Assembly: GCA_003225175.1 (NCBI GenBank) | Contig: QIBA01000062.1 | Span: 1-60,527, forward strand | Direction: 5' to 3' | From: Acidobacteriota bacterium | Lineage (GTDB): Bacteria > Acidobacteriota > Terriglobia > Terriglobales > Acidobacteriaceae | Length of the DNA: 60,527 nucleotides | Shown here: in pieces, positions 347 to 7,460 of the stretch | How positions within the stretch are numbered: the first letter of the stretch is position 1 | How the letters are laid out: each line of letters opens with the position of its first letter | Translations under genes and position numbers: made by a program | The notes under the pieces: generated by a model | Database searches by the model: none | Told to the model about the DNA's origin: nothing | The model's input: the letters and a program-made list of their open reading frames with translations, nothing else

Positions 347-2131
347 CTAATCCTTCACGCGTCTCTGATGCGTGCTGGGAATTTTCATATCCTCACGATA
401 CTTGGCTACGGTGCGCCGTGTCACGTTGATTCCTTGCGATTGCAGAATGCGCGTGATTTGCTCGTCGGTGAGCGGACGGCGCGAATCTTCTTCTTCGATC
501 AGCTTCTTCACCCGCCGCTTCAGGATCATCAGCGATGTGCCGCCGCCTTCGGGGCCATTCACGCTTTCGCTGAAGAAGTAGCGCAGCTCGTAGACACCCT
601 GCGGCGTGTGCACATACTTGTTGGCAACCGCTCGGCTCACGGTGGAAGGATGCACGCCAATTTCCTCGGCCACTTCCTTGATCATCATTGGTTTTAGCTG
701 GTCGATGCCAAGGTCGAGGAACTCGCGCTGGCGTCCGATGATCGCGTAGCAGGTCTTCAGGATTGTCTGCTTGCGTTGCTCGATGTTCTTCATGAGCTGA
801 ATAGCAGATTTATACCGCTCTTTCACATAATTGCGAACATCTTTTTCGGCGGCATCACGGTTGAGCAACTTTTTGTAGCCGGGATTCAGGCGAAGCACAG
901 GAACGTCGTCTTCGTTCATCAGCACGAAGTACTCATCGCCCTGTTTCACGAAGGCAACGTCGGGCTCGATCAGCCGCGGCTCTACCTGGTTGTAGCGCTG
1001 ACCCGGTTTGGGATCCAGTGTCTTGATGAAGTTCAGCGCATCCATCACCGACTCCAGCGGTCGTTGAATGGCGCGCGCAATATCCTTGTACTGCCGGTTT
1101 TGTACGTTGCGCAGTTGGGTTTCAACAATCGCGGTTGTTGTTTGAATCTGTGCGAGGTGCTGGTTTTGGACCTCGGAATCACCGTTCAGAACGCGATTGT
1201 TTACCTGATGCTCTAGATCCCGCAATTGCAGAAGCAGGCACTCGCGAAGATCACGAGCAGCGACTCCGACCGGATCCATTTGGCGTATAAGGTCGATTCC
1301 CTCGCGCAGATCTTCAATCGTGAAAGGAGCTTCAACCGGTTTCGCGCGCTCGACGCGGCTTACCGACGCCGGATTTGGTGCGACCGAAGGTTTGAGAGCC
1401 GGCGATGCAGCCGTCGCCATTGGCTTGGCGCCGACGTAGCTCCCAACCAGAACTTCCGCGGCTTCTTCAACGAAGGGATCGTCGTCCTCAGTATCAAGCG
1501 CAGCAGGAGCGGCAGAGCCTGTTCCGTTGACCGTCGGTGCCGGCGGAGCAATCTCGGATCCGGACGTCTCAAGTTCAATGCTTTCGCCGCGGGAAGCAGC
1601 CATCAGCTCTTCATCGGAGGCGACAAGATAACCGTCATCGTTCAAGTTGCCAATGACGAGTTCGGCCGCAGCGCGAACTTCCGGACTCACACTCATTGCT
1701 CCGAGCTGCCACATCAGGTGATCGGTCAAATTGCCTGGCTTGGAGAGAAAATTCTCAAACGAAGGACGATCGGAGCTTTCAAAGTCCTGTGGACTGCGGA
1801 ATCCAGGATCGAGGTAGTCCTTGAAGTAAGTGCCGAAATCGATCTCATCGAACGGATCTTTTTTCTCACCAGCCTGCTCTCCCGCCGTAAGCGGTGGCTG
1901 TTCAGGAGCTTCCGCGCGCTCGCGATCAGCTTCGCGGCCTGCAACTTGATCGATTAGCGGAATATTGGATTCGAGTTCCTCCAGAACAGGATTCTCGACG
2001 ATCTCTGCATTGATCATCTCCTTGAGCTCGAGTTTGTTCAGCGCAAGGACGCTGACCATCTGCACGAGCCCCGGTGTGAGGATCTGCTTCTGAGAGACCT
2101 TGAGATTAAGTTTGTTCTGAAGTAGGACCAT
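347..2131 (-). CDS. rpoN: RNA polymerase sigma-54 factor RpoN
   Basis: This 594-residue protein is the alternative sigma factor that recognises -24/-12 promoters and needs enhancer-binding AAA+ activators to open them. Region I is visible at the N-terminus (glutamine-rich LNLKVSQKQILTPGLVQMV). An acidic, Ala/Pro-rich linker at about residues 65-270 is longer than in E. coli. It is followed by the core-binding domain, the HTH (about residues 485-505, IGVHPSTVSRAVANKYV) and the RpoN box near the C-terminus (RRTVAKYRE), which contacts the -24 element. It lies 123 nt downstream of lptB and upstream of hpf. The long linker explains a length above the usual 450-500 residues. Identification is firm. 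Confidence 0.97.
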   Translation of the reverse strand: MVLLQNKLNLKVSQKQILTPGLVQMVSVLALNKLELKEMINAEIVENPVLEELESNIPLIDQVAGREADRERAEAPEQPPLTAGEQAGEKKDPFDEIDFGTYFKDYLDPGFRSPQDFESSDRPSFENFLSKPGNLTDHLMWQLGAMSVSPEVRAAAELVIGNLNDDGYLVASDEELMAASRGESIELETSGSEIAPPAPTVNGTGSAAPAALDTEDDDPFVEEAAEVLVGSYVGAKPMATAASPALKPSVAPNPASVSRVERAKPVEAPFTIEDLREGIDLIRQMDPVGVAARDLRECLLLQLRDLEHQVNNRVLNGDSEVQNQHLAQIQTTTAIVETQLRNVQNRQYKDIARAIQRPLESVMDALNFIKTLDPKPGQRYNQVEPRLIEPDVAFVKQGDEYFVLMNEDDVPVLRLNPGYKKLLNRDAAEKDVRNYVKERYKSAIQLMKNIEQRKQTILKTCYAIIGRQREFLDLGIDQLKPMMIKEVAEEIGVHPSTVSRAVANKYVHTPQGVYELRYFFSESVNGPEGGGTSLMILKRRVKKLIEEEDSRRPLTDEQITRILQSQGINVTRRTVAKYREDMKIPSTHQRRVKD

Positions 2132-2196
2132 TAGCCTTGAACGAGTGCTCCCGATCTGAATCTACGTGCTCTGCCCATTCGCTCTAATCACTGTTG

Positions 2197-2217
2197 TCCT
2201 GAGCCGAGGGCTCAGGA
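2197..2217. repeat. 9-bp perfect stem-loop in the lptB-rpoN spacer
   Basis: TCCTGAGCC and GGCTCAGGA are separated by GAG. The T-run follows on the plus strand, so it does not act as an intrinsic terminator for the minus-strand lptB>rpoN transcript. It is probably a dispersed intergenic hairpin that may protect the 3' end of lptB mRNA. Confidence 0.5.
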
Positions 2218-2254
2218 TGACGGTTTTTAGGACTTGCAACAAAGTCGATACACC

Positions 2255-2989
2255 TCACACCAAAGAGAAGCTCTCTCCCAGATAAATTCTCTTTACCTCA
2301 GGATCATTGCCTAACTGTTCCGGCGTCCCCGAGCGGAAGATCTTGCCTTGATTGATGATGTAAGCGCGATCGGTCACCGACAGCGTCTCTCGTACGTTGT
2401 GGTCCGTGATCAGCACTCCAATTCCACTGGCCTTTAGATCAAAAATGATCTTCTGCAGGTCCAGCACGGCGATCGGATCAATTCCGGAAAACGGCTCGTC
2501 CAGCAGAATGAACGTCGGGCGAATGCAGAGGCATCTCGCGATTTCCACTCGCCGTCTTTCGCCGCCTGACAGCGCATACCCCCGCGTCTTCCGGATATGT
2601 CCGAGTCCGAGCTGTTCGATCAGGGTCTCCATGCGGCTGCGCCGGTTCTCCCAGGAGAGCGGCTGGGCCTCAAGGATGGCCATAATGTTTTCCTCGACCG
2701 TCAGCTTGCGGAAGACCGAGGGCTCCTGCGGAAGGTAGCTAATGCCGTAGTTGCGTGCCCGCAAGTACATTGGGACATCAGTGATGTCCGCCCCATCGAT
2801 CGCAATTCGGCCCGTATCCGGCGCCACCAGCCCGACGATCATGTAGAAGCTTGTTGTCTTGCCAGCCCCATTCGGGCCTAACAAGCCCACTACCTCACCC
2901 TGATTTATGTGGAGAGTGACCCCGTTCACTACCCTCCGACCTCTGTAGGCTTTGCCTATCTGGTCGGTCGAGAGGGTTTGTTGCATCAT
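2255..2989 (-). CDS. lptB: LPS export ABC transporter ATP-binding protein LptB
   Basis: This 244-residue ABC ATPase powers extraction of lipopolysaccharide from the inner membrane with LptFG and passes it to the LptC/LptA bridge. Walker A (GPNGAGKTT) is at residues 39-47, the signature motif is LSGGERRR, and Walker B reads [13 protein letters not shown]. The length and the wording of these motifs are typical of LptB rather than a general importer. Its start overlaps the stop of the upstream lptC/lptA-like gene by ATGA, so the two are translationally coupled. Two consecutive ATG codons make the exact start ambiguous by one residue. Confidence 0.96.
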
Positions 2990-5373
2990 TTCTTGAACCG
3001 AGTCTGAGTTATGGACGTTGAATTGCTACTATCCACGAGAACTCTACCATCGCGGTTAAAGAAGGTCAACGAAACTCCCGTAACTTGACCGTGTTCGGCA
3101 TCAAAAATGCTAGGCGGAACGCCGGGCGATCCGGTTAGCACGAATTTCCCTTCATCGGCGGTATATATAAGGTGTGCGCCTAGAGCCTTTCGACCGGGTT
3201 GCTCGAGATGGATATCGCCCTCCGCATCAATCGTTTGCACTTCGCTTGGGGCACCTTGATCCGACGCTTTAGGAGTTCGCGCTTTCGCGTCTTCGGCTCC
3301 GGTCCGCGGCTTCAACGTGATGACGGCTTTGTTCGCGCGAAGCGTCGAATCGGCGCTGCGGACGAGAATGGAACCCTCGAAAATTGCTTTTCTTTGCGCG
3401 TCTTCATAATGCAGATGGTCCGCTTTCACCTCGACCGGAACGTCTTTCCCATTCTTGTCTGGCTGTACAAAAACTGTGGAAACCGGCTCACTGCTCTGGG
3501 TCCGGGCATCCAATGTTCGCCCATTTCGATTGAACTCCAAAACGGGAGCCTGGACGATGTTTCCACCCTGCCAGAGACGCGCGCGCCCTGAATATCGAGC
3601 GGAACCGGTGGAGTTCCTGGCAACCATCTGCTCGGCTGTCGCGTGAACCGCCTGGGAGGCGGAGAGCATCCCTCCTGACTCCGGTGTTTTTTGCTCGGCA
3701 TATGTTGTTTTTACGTCTCCACTGGCCGAGGTTTCGCCGGTCGTACGATTCAGAATCAAACTGTTGCTGGTAAGTGCAGAGCCCGTGGACTCGTCCTTGT
3801 AACGGACATTGCCTTTGAGGCTCATAGAATCGGCAGCCTGGCTGTAGGTAGCTTGATCGGCCGTAGCGATTCTCTTGCCCTCCTGAATTTGCACGTTGCC
3901 GGTTTGAATCACATCTTCGAGGGTCTGAGTTTTGCCCTTGGTGAATGTCGCCAACATGTCCTGGCTCTGGCTAATTCGGTCGGGTTGGCCAGGCGTGCTG
4001 GAAATGATTTTTACCGGCGAGCTCCCGGCAAGGGTGGAAATGCGATTGTCGTCAGAGAATTTAACCTCAAGACGGCTGGCCGTGATCGTTGTCTTCCCGC
4101 TCTGGGGCTGAGAGCCAGTTTGGCCCGATTTCTGCACGGTAGGTAGCGCGATTTGGGCAGTTCCCACGCTGGTCGCTGTCTGCAGCCGGGTCCCATTGAG
4201 GATAACGAGATCAAGCCCATCACCGCGAAACTGTGTTCCCCGAGGCGCGAGTGCTTCTTGTTGCGCGACCGTGGTCGTGTTTGGCTGCTTGTCCACGAGC
4301 GACATATTTTTTCGCATTTCCGATTCTTGTTTGCCATTCTGGGATGCGGGAACCTGAACGAGATCGACGTTATCTCTGAGTTCCGCCGATTTAACCTGAT
4401 TATCTGATCCGAAGCTAAGTATTATCCGTCCGGCATTTCCTCGCGATGCCGTCGAACCACTCGTTTCCCATGTGACGCCTCCGAAGAGATGTCCGCTGCT
4501 TGCCTGATTCTGCGGACCAAACGTGAAACTCGCTTGAGCGGTATGAAGCTGAGCCCGCCGCAATCCGCGAACGAGCGCATCGACTCCGCCGCCGGCATCA
4601 GCGCGCTCAACTGTCTTGTCGTCGCGCAGGTGCAACACAACATTCTGTGCCTGGAGTTTGCGAATAGCCGACTCGGCCCGAAGATCTTTTAGCCTCAATT
4701 CCTGTGATTCCTGAGCATAGAGAGCGCTGCCGGCTTGCAGCTTCGTTGGCTTTGGCCCATTAGTGAGGAGGTGGATGTCGGAGTGAAGCTGAAAAATGTT
4801 CTGCTTCGAATCATAAGTAGCGCCCAGCGCCGACCCAGTTCCTTGTGGCAAGGAGAAGTTTATTTTCTGAGTCGTCTTCGCAATGCCGCTGTTCTTGTTG
4901 AATGTCAGTCCGCTGGTTTCGAGGTGAAGGGGACTTCCGACCTTTTTGGGACTGGAGCCTGGAGCTGAGGTCGCCGGCTGCACTGCCTGAAGTTCAATCG
5001 AGACCCTTCCCTTGGCGGTGATGTCTCCGCTTTGCGCGTCATATTCAAAGTCGTCGCCCGAGATCTCATCCAGACGGTCCGATTGGCGCCCATATGACAG
5101 GATTTTGACCTTGTGTAATTCGGCTCTTCCGCCTTGCTTGTATCGAATCGCGTTAGCCGCACTCACGGAAAAGATCGTGTGCCCGCCAGCAGCCTGCGAA
5201 TAAGTGAAACCCTCGGTGTTCTGCTGAATGTTCACCCCTAATTTTGTCGGGAGGTCATGGATTGCCCTCTGTACGCGATACCGCGCATAGATGTAGAAGC
5301 CGGCGACCACTGCGACCATGAGCAGCGCCGAGAATCCTAACCAAAATCGCAGACGGGTGAAAATTGAGGGCAC
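2986..5373 (-). CDS. LptC-type membrane anchor fused to several LptA/OstA-like segments
   Basis: This 795-residue protein has one N-terminal membrane segment (about residues 9-29) and then a long predicted periplasmic beta-rich part. The first part resembles LptC (a TM anchor followed by the segment reading [20 protein letters not shown]). Further on there are at least two OstA_N/LptA-like stretches, for example around residues 470-560 ([20 protein letters not shown]) and 660-770 ([20 protein letters not shown]). LptC and LptA normally form a head-to-tail jelly-roll bridge carrying LPS across the periplasm. A single long chain could supply several of those units. Translational coupling to lptB supports the role. 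E. coli LptC is about 190 and LptA about 185 residues, so this is roughly twice their sum. Domain borders are estimates. Confidence 0.85.
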
Positions 5374-5489: not shown

Positions 5490-5936
5490 ATGACTCAGTC
5501 AGATGTCCGCGAATACAAAGCTCAGGCAGGTTCAACCGGGATTTTTGGGCGAGTAATCGGTAGTGCACGGCATCATCATTTCGTTGTAGACGGACCGGTG
5601 CAGAATGGCTGCCCCGGCGAGGCAATTACTCCCGCAGAACTATTCCTTTCCGGTGTAGCTGCTTGCGGCGTCGAGTTGGTGCAAGTGCTCGCGAAGTCGG
5701 AGGCTATCCCAGTGAAGGGAATTGCCGTTGATATCCGGGGCACTATTGATCGCTCTCGCCCGCCACGCAAGGACGTCTCGCTCTTCAACTCGGTGAAACT
5801 GAGTTTCCGAATGAAAGGTATAAGCGAGCAGCAAGGCCGGCGTTTGGTCGATCTGTTCAAGGGCAGATGACCGCTCTATGGCACGGTCGCAGTTGCGACC
5901 GAAGACGTCCAAGTCAACCTCATTGTCGAAGCTTAA
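5490..5936 (+). CDS. OsmC-family thiol peroxidase-like protein with in-frame UGA (candidate selenocysteine)
   Basis: The frame reads 126 residues of a standard OsmC-family protein, meets TGA at 5868-5870, and continues in the same frame with PLYGTVAVATEDVQVNLIVE to a TAA at 5934-5936. OsmC/Ohr proteins reduce hydroperoxides with two cysteines. The first is present (Cys59 in SGVAACGVEL). The second normally lies in a KGRCPLYGTV-like motif, and here the UGA stands exactly at that Cys (residue 127; the E. coli pair is Cys59/Cys125). A hairpin resembling a bacterial SECIS lies just downstream. The start at 5490 is preferred because GAGG lies 7 nt upstream; 5475 is an alternative. The gene is divergent from the lptC-like gene. 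The alternative explanations are a TGC-to-TGA nonsense mutation or a sequencing error. The family call is firm; the Sec reading is an inference. Confidence 0.8.
5884..5901 (+). promoter_or_regulatory. SECIS-like hairpin downstream of the OsmC UGA
   Basis: CGGTCGC, loop AGTT and GCGACCG form a perfect 7-bp stem with a four-base loop. The loop begins 20 nt after the UGA (5868-5870) and contains G at position 2, followed by U. Published rules for bacterial SECIS elements ask for a short stem-loop with a small apical loop, a G among the first two loop bases, and roughly 16-37 nt between UGA and loop; this hairpin meets all of them. It lacks the bulged U of the E. coli fdhF element. It lies inside the coding region, so the match could be partly accidental. 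Confidence 0.6.
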
Positions 5937-5996: not shown

Positions 5997-7460
5997 ATGT
6001 TCAAAGGATCTACTGCCTTCCTGATCTCTATGTTCGCAATCTGCAGCGCTATTGCGCAGAATGCGCCTCAAGCCGCTCGGGAGTGGACCGCCGCTCATCG
6101 TCAGCAGATTCAGGATCAATTTACCAACCTGTTGGCCATTCCAAACATTGCCAGTGATACTGCGAATATTCGCCGCAACGCTGAGACTCTTGTCGGAATG
6201 CTTAAGGAGCGCGATGTCGACGCGCGGCTTTTATCCATCCCGGACGCTCCTCCGGTTGTGTACGGAGAGATTCATGTCCCTAAGGCGCAGCACATGATCG
6301 TCTTCTATGCGCACTATGATGGCCAGCCAGTGACGCCGGCCGACTGGGTGGGCGGAAATCCATTCAAACCTGCATTCCGCCTCGAGAATGGCGAGACCCG
6401 CATTTACGCGCGATCTGCCTCCGACGATAAAGCCGCGATCCTCGCGCAATTGACGGCCATTGATGCCCTTCACGCAGCTCACATTCCGCTAAAGTCGAGC
6501 ATTCGCTTCGTGTGGGAAGGGGAAGAGGAGGCCGGATCACCTCATCTCGAGCAAATTCTCGACGCGAATCGCAATCTGATCGCTGGAGACGTGTGGCTGG
6601 TCTGTGATGGTCCTGTCGATCAGAGTGGCGCGCAGTCTGTGGTCTTTGGAGCGCGTGGGGATACGCATCTCGAAATTACTGTGTATGGCCCGCGGCGCGA
6701 ATTGCATAGTGGACATTACGGCAATTGGGCTCCGAACCCCGCAATGATGCTCGCGCAACTGCTCGCGGGCATGAAAGATGACGGTGGTCGAGTTCTGATT
6801 CCTCACTTCTACGACGGGATTACTGCGCTAAGCCCGCTCGAACAGGACGCGATCGCAAGGGCGCCAAAGAATGACGAGAAGCTAAAGCAGGAACTCTGGC
6901 TAGGTCACGTGGATGGCGGAGGCAAGCCCCTGCTCGAAGTGCTGAACTATCCCACGCTGAACATCAACGGAATTTCTTCTGGACGCACCGGTCCGCGGGC
7001 CAACAACATCATTCCCGCTACGGCTACTGTCGATCTGGATCTGCGTCTGGTAGTGGGAATCGATTGGCACGAACAGCAGGATCGCGTGATTGATTACATC
7101 CGGTCGCAGGGATACTACGTCACCGATCGCGAACCCGACGCGCAGACTTTGATGACGCATCGTAGAGTGGCATTCGTAAAACGTGACTCCGGCTACAACG
7201 CCGTGCGCACACCCATGGATTTACCGATTGCTAAAGAAGTGATCAAGGCGGTCGAAACCGCCGACCAACCGGTTGTCCTCTGGCCAACGATGGGAGGCAG
7301 CGTCCCCTTAGGAGCAATCGAACGCGCAGCCTCGACGCACACAATTACCGTCCCCATCGCAAACTACGATAACAATCAGCACAGCGCGAACGAGAATATC
7401 CGCCTGCAGAACTTATGGGACGGAATCGAGACAATGGCTGCGTTGATGGCGATGGATTAG
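5997..7460 (+). CDS. Secreted M20-family zinc peptidase/dipeptidase
   Basis: This 487-residue protein has an N-terminal signal peptide (hydrophobic residues 6-20, ending SAIAQ). The M20 metal and catalytic motifs are visible: YAHYDGQP (His106, Asp108), ARSASDDKA (bridging Asp143) and WEGEEEAGS (general base Glu176 and metal Glu177). A dimerisation-domain segment follows (TNLNGISSGRTGP-like, about residues 320-340), and a late His lies in NQHSANENIR. It probably trims peptides in the periplasm or outside the cell. It follows the OsmC-like gene by 60 nt on the same strand, but no functional link is apparent. Substrate cannot be read from the sequence. Confidence 0.92.
   Translation: MFKGSTAFLISMFAICSAIAQNAPQAAREWTAAHRQQIQDQFTNLLAIPNIASDTANIRRNAETLVGMLKERDVDARLLSIPDAPPVVYGEIHVPKAQHMIVFYAHYDGQPVTPADWVGGNPFKPAFRLENGETRIYARSASDDKAAILAQLTAIDALHAAHIPLKSSIRFVWEGEEEAGSPHLEQILDANRNLIAGDVWLVCDGPVDQSGAQSVVFGARGDTHLEITVYGPRRELHSGHYGNWAPNPAMMLAQLLAGMKDDGGRVLIPHFYDGITALSPLEQDAIARAPKNDEKLKQELWLGHVDGGGKPLLEVLNYPTLNINGISSGRTGPRANNIIPATATVDLDLRLVVGIDWHEQQDRVIDYIRSQGYYVTDREPDAQTLMTHRRVAFVKRDSGYNAVRTPMDLPIAKEVIKAVETADQPVVLWPTMGGSVPLGAIERAASTHTITVPIANYDNNQHSANENIRLQNLWDGIETMAALMAMD

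Follow-up and report, generated by a model that had tools for sequence, protein, structure and literature searches.

OsmC-fold selenoproteins and the candidate gene

According to the available text of PMC5962072, the first cysteine of Ohr attacks the hydroperoxide, the second cysteine closes a disulfide, and the resulting pair is reduced by lipoylated proteins. The accessible part of PMC8945050 describes OsmC as also being reduced by lipoyl systems, and YhfA proteins are said there to be without both Arg and Glu. Selenocysteine (Sec)-containing proteins of this kind have been reported from marine sequences: as far as the available portions of these sources go, three OsmC-like selenoproteins with the motif UXXT are described in the Sargasso Sea set of 2005 (PMC1088965) and five OsmC-like selenoproteins in the Global Ocean Sampling paper of 2008 (PMC2398784), and the UxxT motif is repeated in reviews of 2022 and 2026 (PMC9312934, PMC13188914). 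The gene analysed here, a stress-protection gene of a soil bacterium that a stop codon seems to truncate, lies in a stretch of 60,527 nucleotides of an Acidobacteriota genome (contig QIBA01000062.1 of assembly GCA_003225175.1), hereafter called the window, and its features are listed in Table 1.

A sequence-only reading of the window had claimed that an in-frame UGA is followed by 21 OsmC-like residues and a TAA, and that this UGA takes the place of the second Cys, while the first Cys (Cys59) is kept. Both claims are borne out. The gene is a single reading frame, and its 148-residue read-through product matches the OsmC family of Pfam (PF02566) with an E value of 7.4e-10 and a score of 39.6 bits (cut-off, 27.5). 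In profile alignments to Ohr proteins of known structure, residue 59 coincides with the cysteine of Ohr AAC and residue 127 with that of VCPY.

Table 1. Positions of the features of the Sec-OsmC gene in the window
Feature	Position	Strand	Basis
Predicted Sec-OsmC reading frame, ATG (5490) to TAA (5934-5936), 148 residues, predicted Sec at 127	5490-5936	+	Frame reading; Pfam OsmC match
Cys59 codon, first (peroxidatic-position) Cys	5664-5666	+	Cys in 39/39 distinct loci; alignment to Ohr AAC cysteine
TGA codon 127, very probably read as Sec, at the second (resolving-position) Cys	5868-5870	+	TGA in 34 and Cys in 5 of 39; Ohr VCPY alignment
21 codons after the putative Sec codon, completing the OsmC domain (PLYGTVAVAT...)	5871-5933	+	Kept in relatives; constrained wobble positions, codons 128-137
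SECIS-type hairpin, arms 5884-5890 and 5895-5901, loop AGUU 5891-5894	5884-5901	+	Folding, covariation, bSECIS rules

The ocean OsmC-like selenoproteins share with the window protein the OsmC fold (COG1765 / PF02566), a single Sec and the existence of Cys homologues, but the motif given in the available text is UxxT, whereas that of the window protein is UPLY. By analogy with the NF041052 members described next, the Sargasso Sea sequences presumably have Sec at the first Cys. The NCBIfam family NF041052, termed OsmC-related (seleno)protein, also has the OsmC fold, with an in-frame TGA followed by a hairpin in two members (L078 and L098), whose phylum is also that of the window. Against this model, the score of the window protein is 31.7 bits, far under the cut-off of 95, and the best E value of the model for the 39 members of the window protein's family is 1.4e-9. 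The cut-off is passed in 2 of 396 genomes of the phylum, by L078 with a TGA and by L079 without one, and in 2 of 162 genomes of the class of L078, by L078 and L098, which both have the TGA and belong to one genus. The TGA of these two genes is located at the first Cys (IAFULLTQL), the second Cys is kept (QTCFTL), and the UGA is followed by a hairpin of at least 5 bp. Their ULLT sequence fits the printed UxxT motif, whereas U-P-L-Y of the window protein does not.

Because Sec comes first in L078 and L098 and second in the family of the window protein, the two OsmC Sec families appear to mirror each other, as judged from two NF041052 sequences of one genus. As read from its gene, the window protein is arranged differently from the published UxxT OsmC selenoproteins, in mirrored fashion. 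Thus, the precedent to which the sequence-only reading had appealed stands in that OsmC-like marine selenoproteins exist, but not in the arrangement, which is UxxT in these proteins and UPLYG, with Sec at the mirrored position, in the window protein. Sec at the second Cys of OsmC is not found in the accessible text of PMC1088965, PMC2398784, PMC9312934 or PMC13188914, which cover the literature in part, and we do not claim that such an arrangement is unpublished. The word OsmC does not appear in the available portions of PMC12013277 and PMC5029168. The AhpD-like and SelW-like CxxU selenoproteins (PMC1088965, available text) resemble the window protein in that Cys is the first and Sec the second residue of the pair, but they belong to other families and have a short local motif, whereas the two residues of the window protein are 68 positions apart.

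Codon 127 and the tract downstream of it in relatives

The protein is present in 2 of 399 genomes of the class to which the window belongs, in 8 of 398 genomes of its GTDB family, and in 3 of the 6 genomes listed for its genus. The gene contains exactly one in-frame TGA in all eight members of the GTDB family, at identities down to 63%. The patterns used to scan genome contigs were taken from the VDGPVQNG and CPGEAITP regions, which exclude codon 127, and 38 loci were obtained. The proteins of seven of these loci are identical to ones found earlier, and the distinct set consists of the window and 38 loci. Codon 127 is TGA in 34 of these 39 distinct loci and TGC or TGT in five, and no other codon is found at this site. 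The occurrence of exactly one in-frame TGA in all eight family members, together with the restriction of codon 127 to TGA and Cys codons over the 39 loci, indicates that the in-frame TGA is more than a chance event. PF02566 is matched by all 39 members, and the ATG start of the window frame is common to most relatives. The names given to the TGA loci are Acidobacteria or Acidobacteriales, Betaproteobacteria, Burkholderiales, Deltaproteobacteria, Gemmatimonadetes or Gemmatimonadaceae, Chloroflexi, Actinobacteria and Thermoleophilia, and the Cys forms come from two Polyangiaceae, one member of the Deltaproteobacteria and two of the Gemmatimonadetes/Gemmatimonadaceae. Two metagenome bins with the TGA form (L051 and L052) are labelled Bordetella parapertussis, but this label is probably wrong, and both are placed with environmental Betaproteobacteria on the tree. 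Carriage by viruses or plasmids was considered and rejected. None of 39 pattern-matching viral stretches encodes a relative. Plasmid records give five matches at 28-31% identity, one of which (H1) is annotated as an organic hydroperoxide resistance protein.

The tract downstream of the TGA is kept both as protein and as RNA, and the random substitutions that would be expected behind a true stop are not seen. Identity at wobble positions is 0.68 for codons 128-137, as compared with 0.47 elsewhere, and 4 of 20,000 permutations give a value as high. The stretch that starts at codon 128 ranks second of 104, and the top-ranked one, which starts at codon 123, overlaps it. The tract downstream of the TGA contains the hairpin CGGUCGC-AGUU-GCGACCG, the loop of which starts 20 nt after the UGA. 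According to the available text of PMC13188914, a bacterial SECIS has a loop of 3-9 nt with a G in one of its first two positions and a spacing of 16-37 nt. The window hairpin agrees with these rules in its spacing of 20 nt and its loop AGUU, and at least 6 bp are formed in all 34 TGA forms. Taken alone, the window hairpin is weak: its z score is -1.81, equal folding is obtained for 9 of 200 shuffles, and a comparable hairpin follows 16 of the 1860 TGAs of the window on both strands. No Rfam family is matched over the whole window.

The comparison of the 34 distinct TGA tracts gives a strong signal. Seven pairs are conserved, from 5885/5900 to 5891/5894, outside which lies the outermost pair of the window hairpin, 5884-5901. 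The seven-pair hairpin is present in all 34 TGA forms, such that 238 of 238 cells are paired, as compared with 87.2% in shuffles, and versions of the hairpin slid along the tract pair at 16 to 72%. Four of the seven pairs show compensatory changes on both sides, a number reached by 2 of 500 shuffles, and the covariation score is 0.363, as compared with 0.136 for shuffled tracts, none of 500 of which scores as high. Further pair types are no more numerous than in shuffles (4 versus 4.4). Unconstrained RNAalifold predicts the same hairpin with six pairs, three of which are changed on both sides. The protein tree has good support for only 10 of its 36 inner branches. On this tree, the pair that closes the loop switches between A-U and G-C at least six times, and the minimum number of switches is two for pair 18-33 and three for pair 21-30. 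The switches of the loop-closing pair are silent at the protein level (GCA-GTT in 20 and GCG-GTC in 14).

Sec machinery and Cys forms

The genome from which the window comes (5.73 Mb in 268 contigs, 98.9% complete) contains all four components that the sequence-only reading had proposed to search for, each over its cut-off. The tRNA-Sec, with the anticodon TCA (UCA), scores 64.4 bits (cut-off, 47), and selA, selB and selD score 554.2, 377.4 and 370.7 bits respectively, over their curated cut-offs. The selD gene of this genome (locus L018, C38:136388-137308) has an in-frame TGA near its start, the read-through of which gives AAGUASKLSP, and probably encodes a second selenoprotein there. Two more OsmC-domain proteins are encoded in the genome, with both Cys residues and without internal stops, and the Sec-OsmC is therefore an additional, perhaps specialised, OsmC member.

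Among the 398 genomes of the GTDB family, selA is found over the cut-off in 181 and in all eight that have the Sec-OsmC gene (E ≤ 1.9e-116). Among 31 further genomes, it is found over the cut-off in 22 of the 26 with a TGA form and in three of the five with a Cys form. The four TGA genomes without selA over the cut-off (L041, L047, L048 and L062) are not alike. L041 has a true tRNA-Sec, and a fragment of its selA lies close to the start of a contig; in L047, of which 1.7 Mb of genome is covered, the tRNA match is a tRNA-Arg. When 150 candidates per genome are scored, L048 and L062 give no tRNA-Sec match over E 1e-7, and L062 has a short selA-like match. The gaps in L048 and L062 likely arise from incomplete assembly. 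The absence of machinery is weak evidence, because these genomes are metagenome bins for which completeness is not given and because only 150 tRNA candidates per genome were scored. Incomplete machinery in four TGA genomes nevertheless remains a result against the Sec reading.

The number of standard pairs kept by the Cys forms out of seven, with G-U allowed, is five in L055, six in L057, six in L058, three in L064 and five in L065. No Cys form has the complete hairpin, which L057 and L058 have lost in part. By a rule of six Watson-Crick pairs, no hairpin is formed in four of the five Cys forms, and that of L065 is another one, located further downstream. The Cys label at codon 127 arises from at least three changes on the tree. 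Both selA and tRNA-Sec are found in the genomes of L055, L057 and L065, and a tRNA-Sec with no selA match in that of L064. The TGC form L058 has a 5-bp hairpin with the loop GGUC at the place of the SECIS (L058:6370-6414), and its genome gives neither a selA match nor, among 150 tRNA candidates scored, a tRNA-Sec match. This hairpin looks like a SECIS decaying after a change from Sec to Cys. The direction from Sec to Cys is likely for L058, for which alone among the Cys forms we claim it. The Cys forms, L058 among them, are an apparent record of Sec given up for Cys.

Proposed function and rival readings

A structure model built from 39 sequences (pLDDT 86; an earlier model from 8 sequences was weaker, with pLDDT 78) is most similar to 1lql among solved structures (E 2.0e-9), and 63 OsmC/Ohr chains are matched at E ≤ 0.001. 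The window protein resembles Ohr peroxidases in its fold and in the positions of the two Cys residues, but it has a predicted Sec where Ohr has the second Cys, and it scores 26.8 bits against the Ohr model TIGR03561, the cut-off of which is 88.85. Ten residues ahead of the first Cys, where Ohr has Glu, the window protein has Ala49 and its relatives have residues other than Glu, a feature shared with YhfA, in which the Ohr Glu is likewise not conserved. The Glu one residue past this position (Glu50) is invariant in the family, as are Arg21 and Arg27. The catalytic combination of Arg and Glu (Arg19 and Glu51 of XfOhr) is not found, and the match of Arg21 or Arg27 to Arg19 of XfOhr is a candidate one. 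Because the catalytic Glu of Ohr is not conserved, peroxidase activity is not assured. By established bacterial Sec biology, SelB and Sec-tRNA(UCA) would bind the hairpin and insert Sec. If the protein behaves like other members of the Ohr/OsmC superfamily, from which its substrate and reductant are proposed, Cys59 or Sec127 would be oxidised by an organic hydroperoxide or a similar electrophile, a Cys59-Sec127 selenenylsulfide would close, and a dithiol, perhaps a lipoylated protein, would reduce it. The positions of the two residues are what suggests such a mixed Cys59-Sec127 pair.

The reading of the gene as one for a Sec-containing OsmC protein holds up, given the machinery in the genome, the 34 TGA loci and the conservation of the post-TGA tract as protein and as RNA. 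With high confidence, the gene would encode a selenoprotein of the Ohr/OsmC fold, with Sec127 at the second redox site, accompanied by the Sec machinery and by a thiol-peroxidase-like cycle as proposed above. The frame by itself contains a stop, and the gene is known from its sequence alone, as would also be the case if the TGA were a true stop followed by decaying remains, or a sequencing error. However, the 33 other distinct loci with a TGA at the site of 5868-5870, which rule out a sequencing error there, the open frame after the TGA and the co-varying hairpin leave this explanation with hardly any probability, and it is rejected. Codon 127 is very probably a site of Sec insertion, and neither a pseudogene stop nor an error. 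A selenium-free decoding of the UGA, in which a suppressor or a changed code would supply another amino acid, is equally hard to credit: no point in its support is found, a tRNA-Sec is present, Cys is the sole alternative residue at the site, and a changed code is rejected because 14 of the 34 TGA-containing genes also end in TGA. Termination at UGA competes with Sec insertion in general, and the gene could by design give two products, a 126-residue form with little selenium and the complete Sec protein with ample selenium. This is improbable, since the truncated form would be without the second redox site and, in the model, without the last helix and strand, and nothing conserved suggests a use for it.

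Within the reading as an OsmC-fold selenoprotein, the ordinary order, in which Cys59 attacks and Sec127 resolves, is slightly favoured. The same protein may instead work with the roles swapped, such that Sec127 attacks and Cys59 resolves, which we consider a serious possibility, though one short of an even chance. A position before a helix often activates a thiol or selenol, and residue 127 lies just before or at the start of helix 128-136 in the model. Sec usually replaces an attacking Cys, and the Glu that precedes the first Cys in Ohr is not conserved. MsrA is cited for Sec in place of the attacking Cys in the available text of PMC13188914. Against swapped roles, Cys59 occupies the peroxidatic position of Ohr and does not vary over the 39 loci, and the three residues Arg21, Arg27 and Glu50 are also invariant. 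The broader proposal, that Acidobacteria, Betaproteobacteria, Deltaproteobacteria, Gemmatimonadetes, Chloroflexi and Actinobacteria share a separate OsmC Sec subfamily with Sec at the second site, in which Sec127 attacks and Cys59 resolves, while the other OsmC family has Sec first, is likewise tentative, possible rather than probable. If it is true, selenium signals that the roles of two residues have been exchanged in a single fold. Sec has apparently been gained at each of the two redox positions of one fold, in different subfamilies, which provides a natural comparison for the long-standing question of whether Sec makes an enzyme attack better, resolve better or withstand over-oxidation. 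Since such genes would lose 22 residues in gene calls that end at UGA, under-annotation of the family is possible.

The genomic context gives no help with function. Of the 77 nearest neighbouring ORFs (greedy longest-ORF calls), 64 were scanned and 13 short ones left out, and a conserved operon as a functional guide is rejected because each Pfam family is seen in at most 3 of the 64 and no neighbouring gene recurs. Adjacent to the Sec-OsmC gene and divergent from it, the minus strand of the window (350-5373) carries genes for a Sigma-54 factor, an ABC ATPase and a protein with an LptC/LptA domain, in what looks like an rpoN-lpt cluster. An M20-family peptidase is encoded on the plus strand at 5997-7460, with its start 60 bases past the stop of the Sec-OsmC gene.
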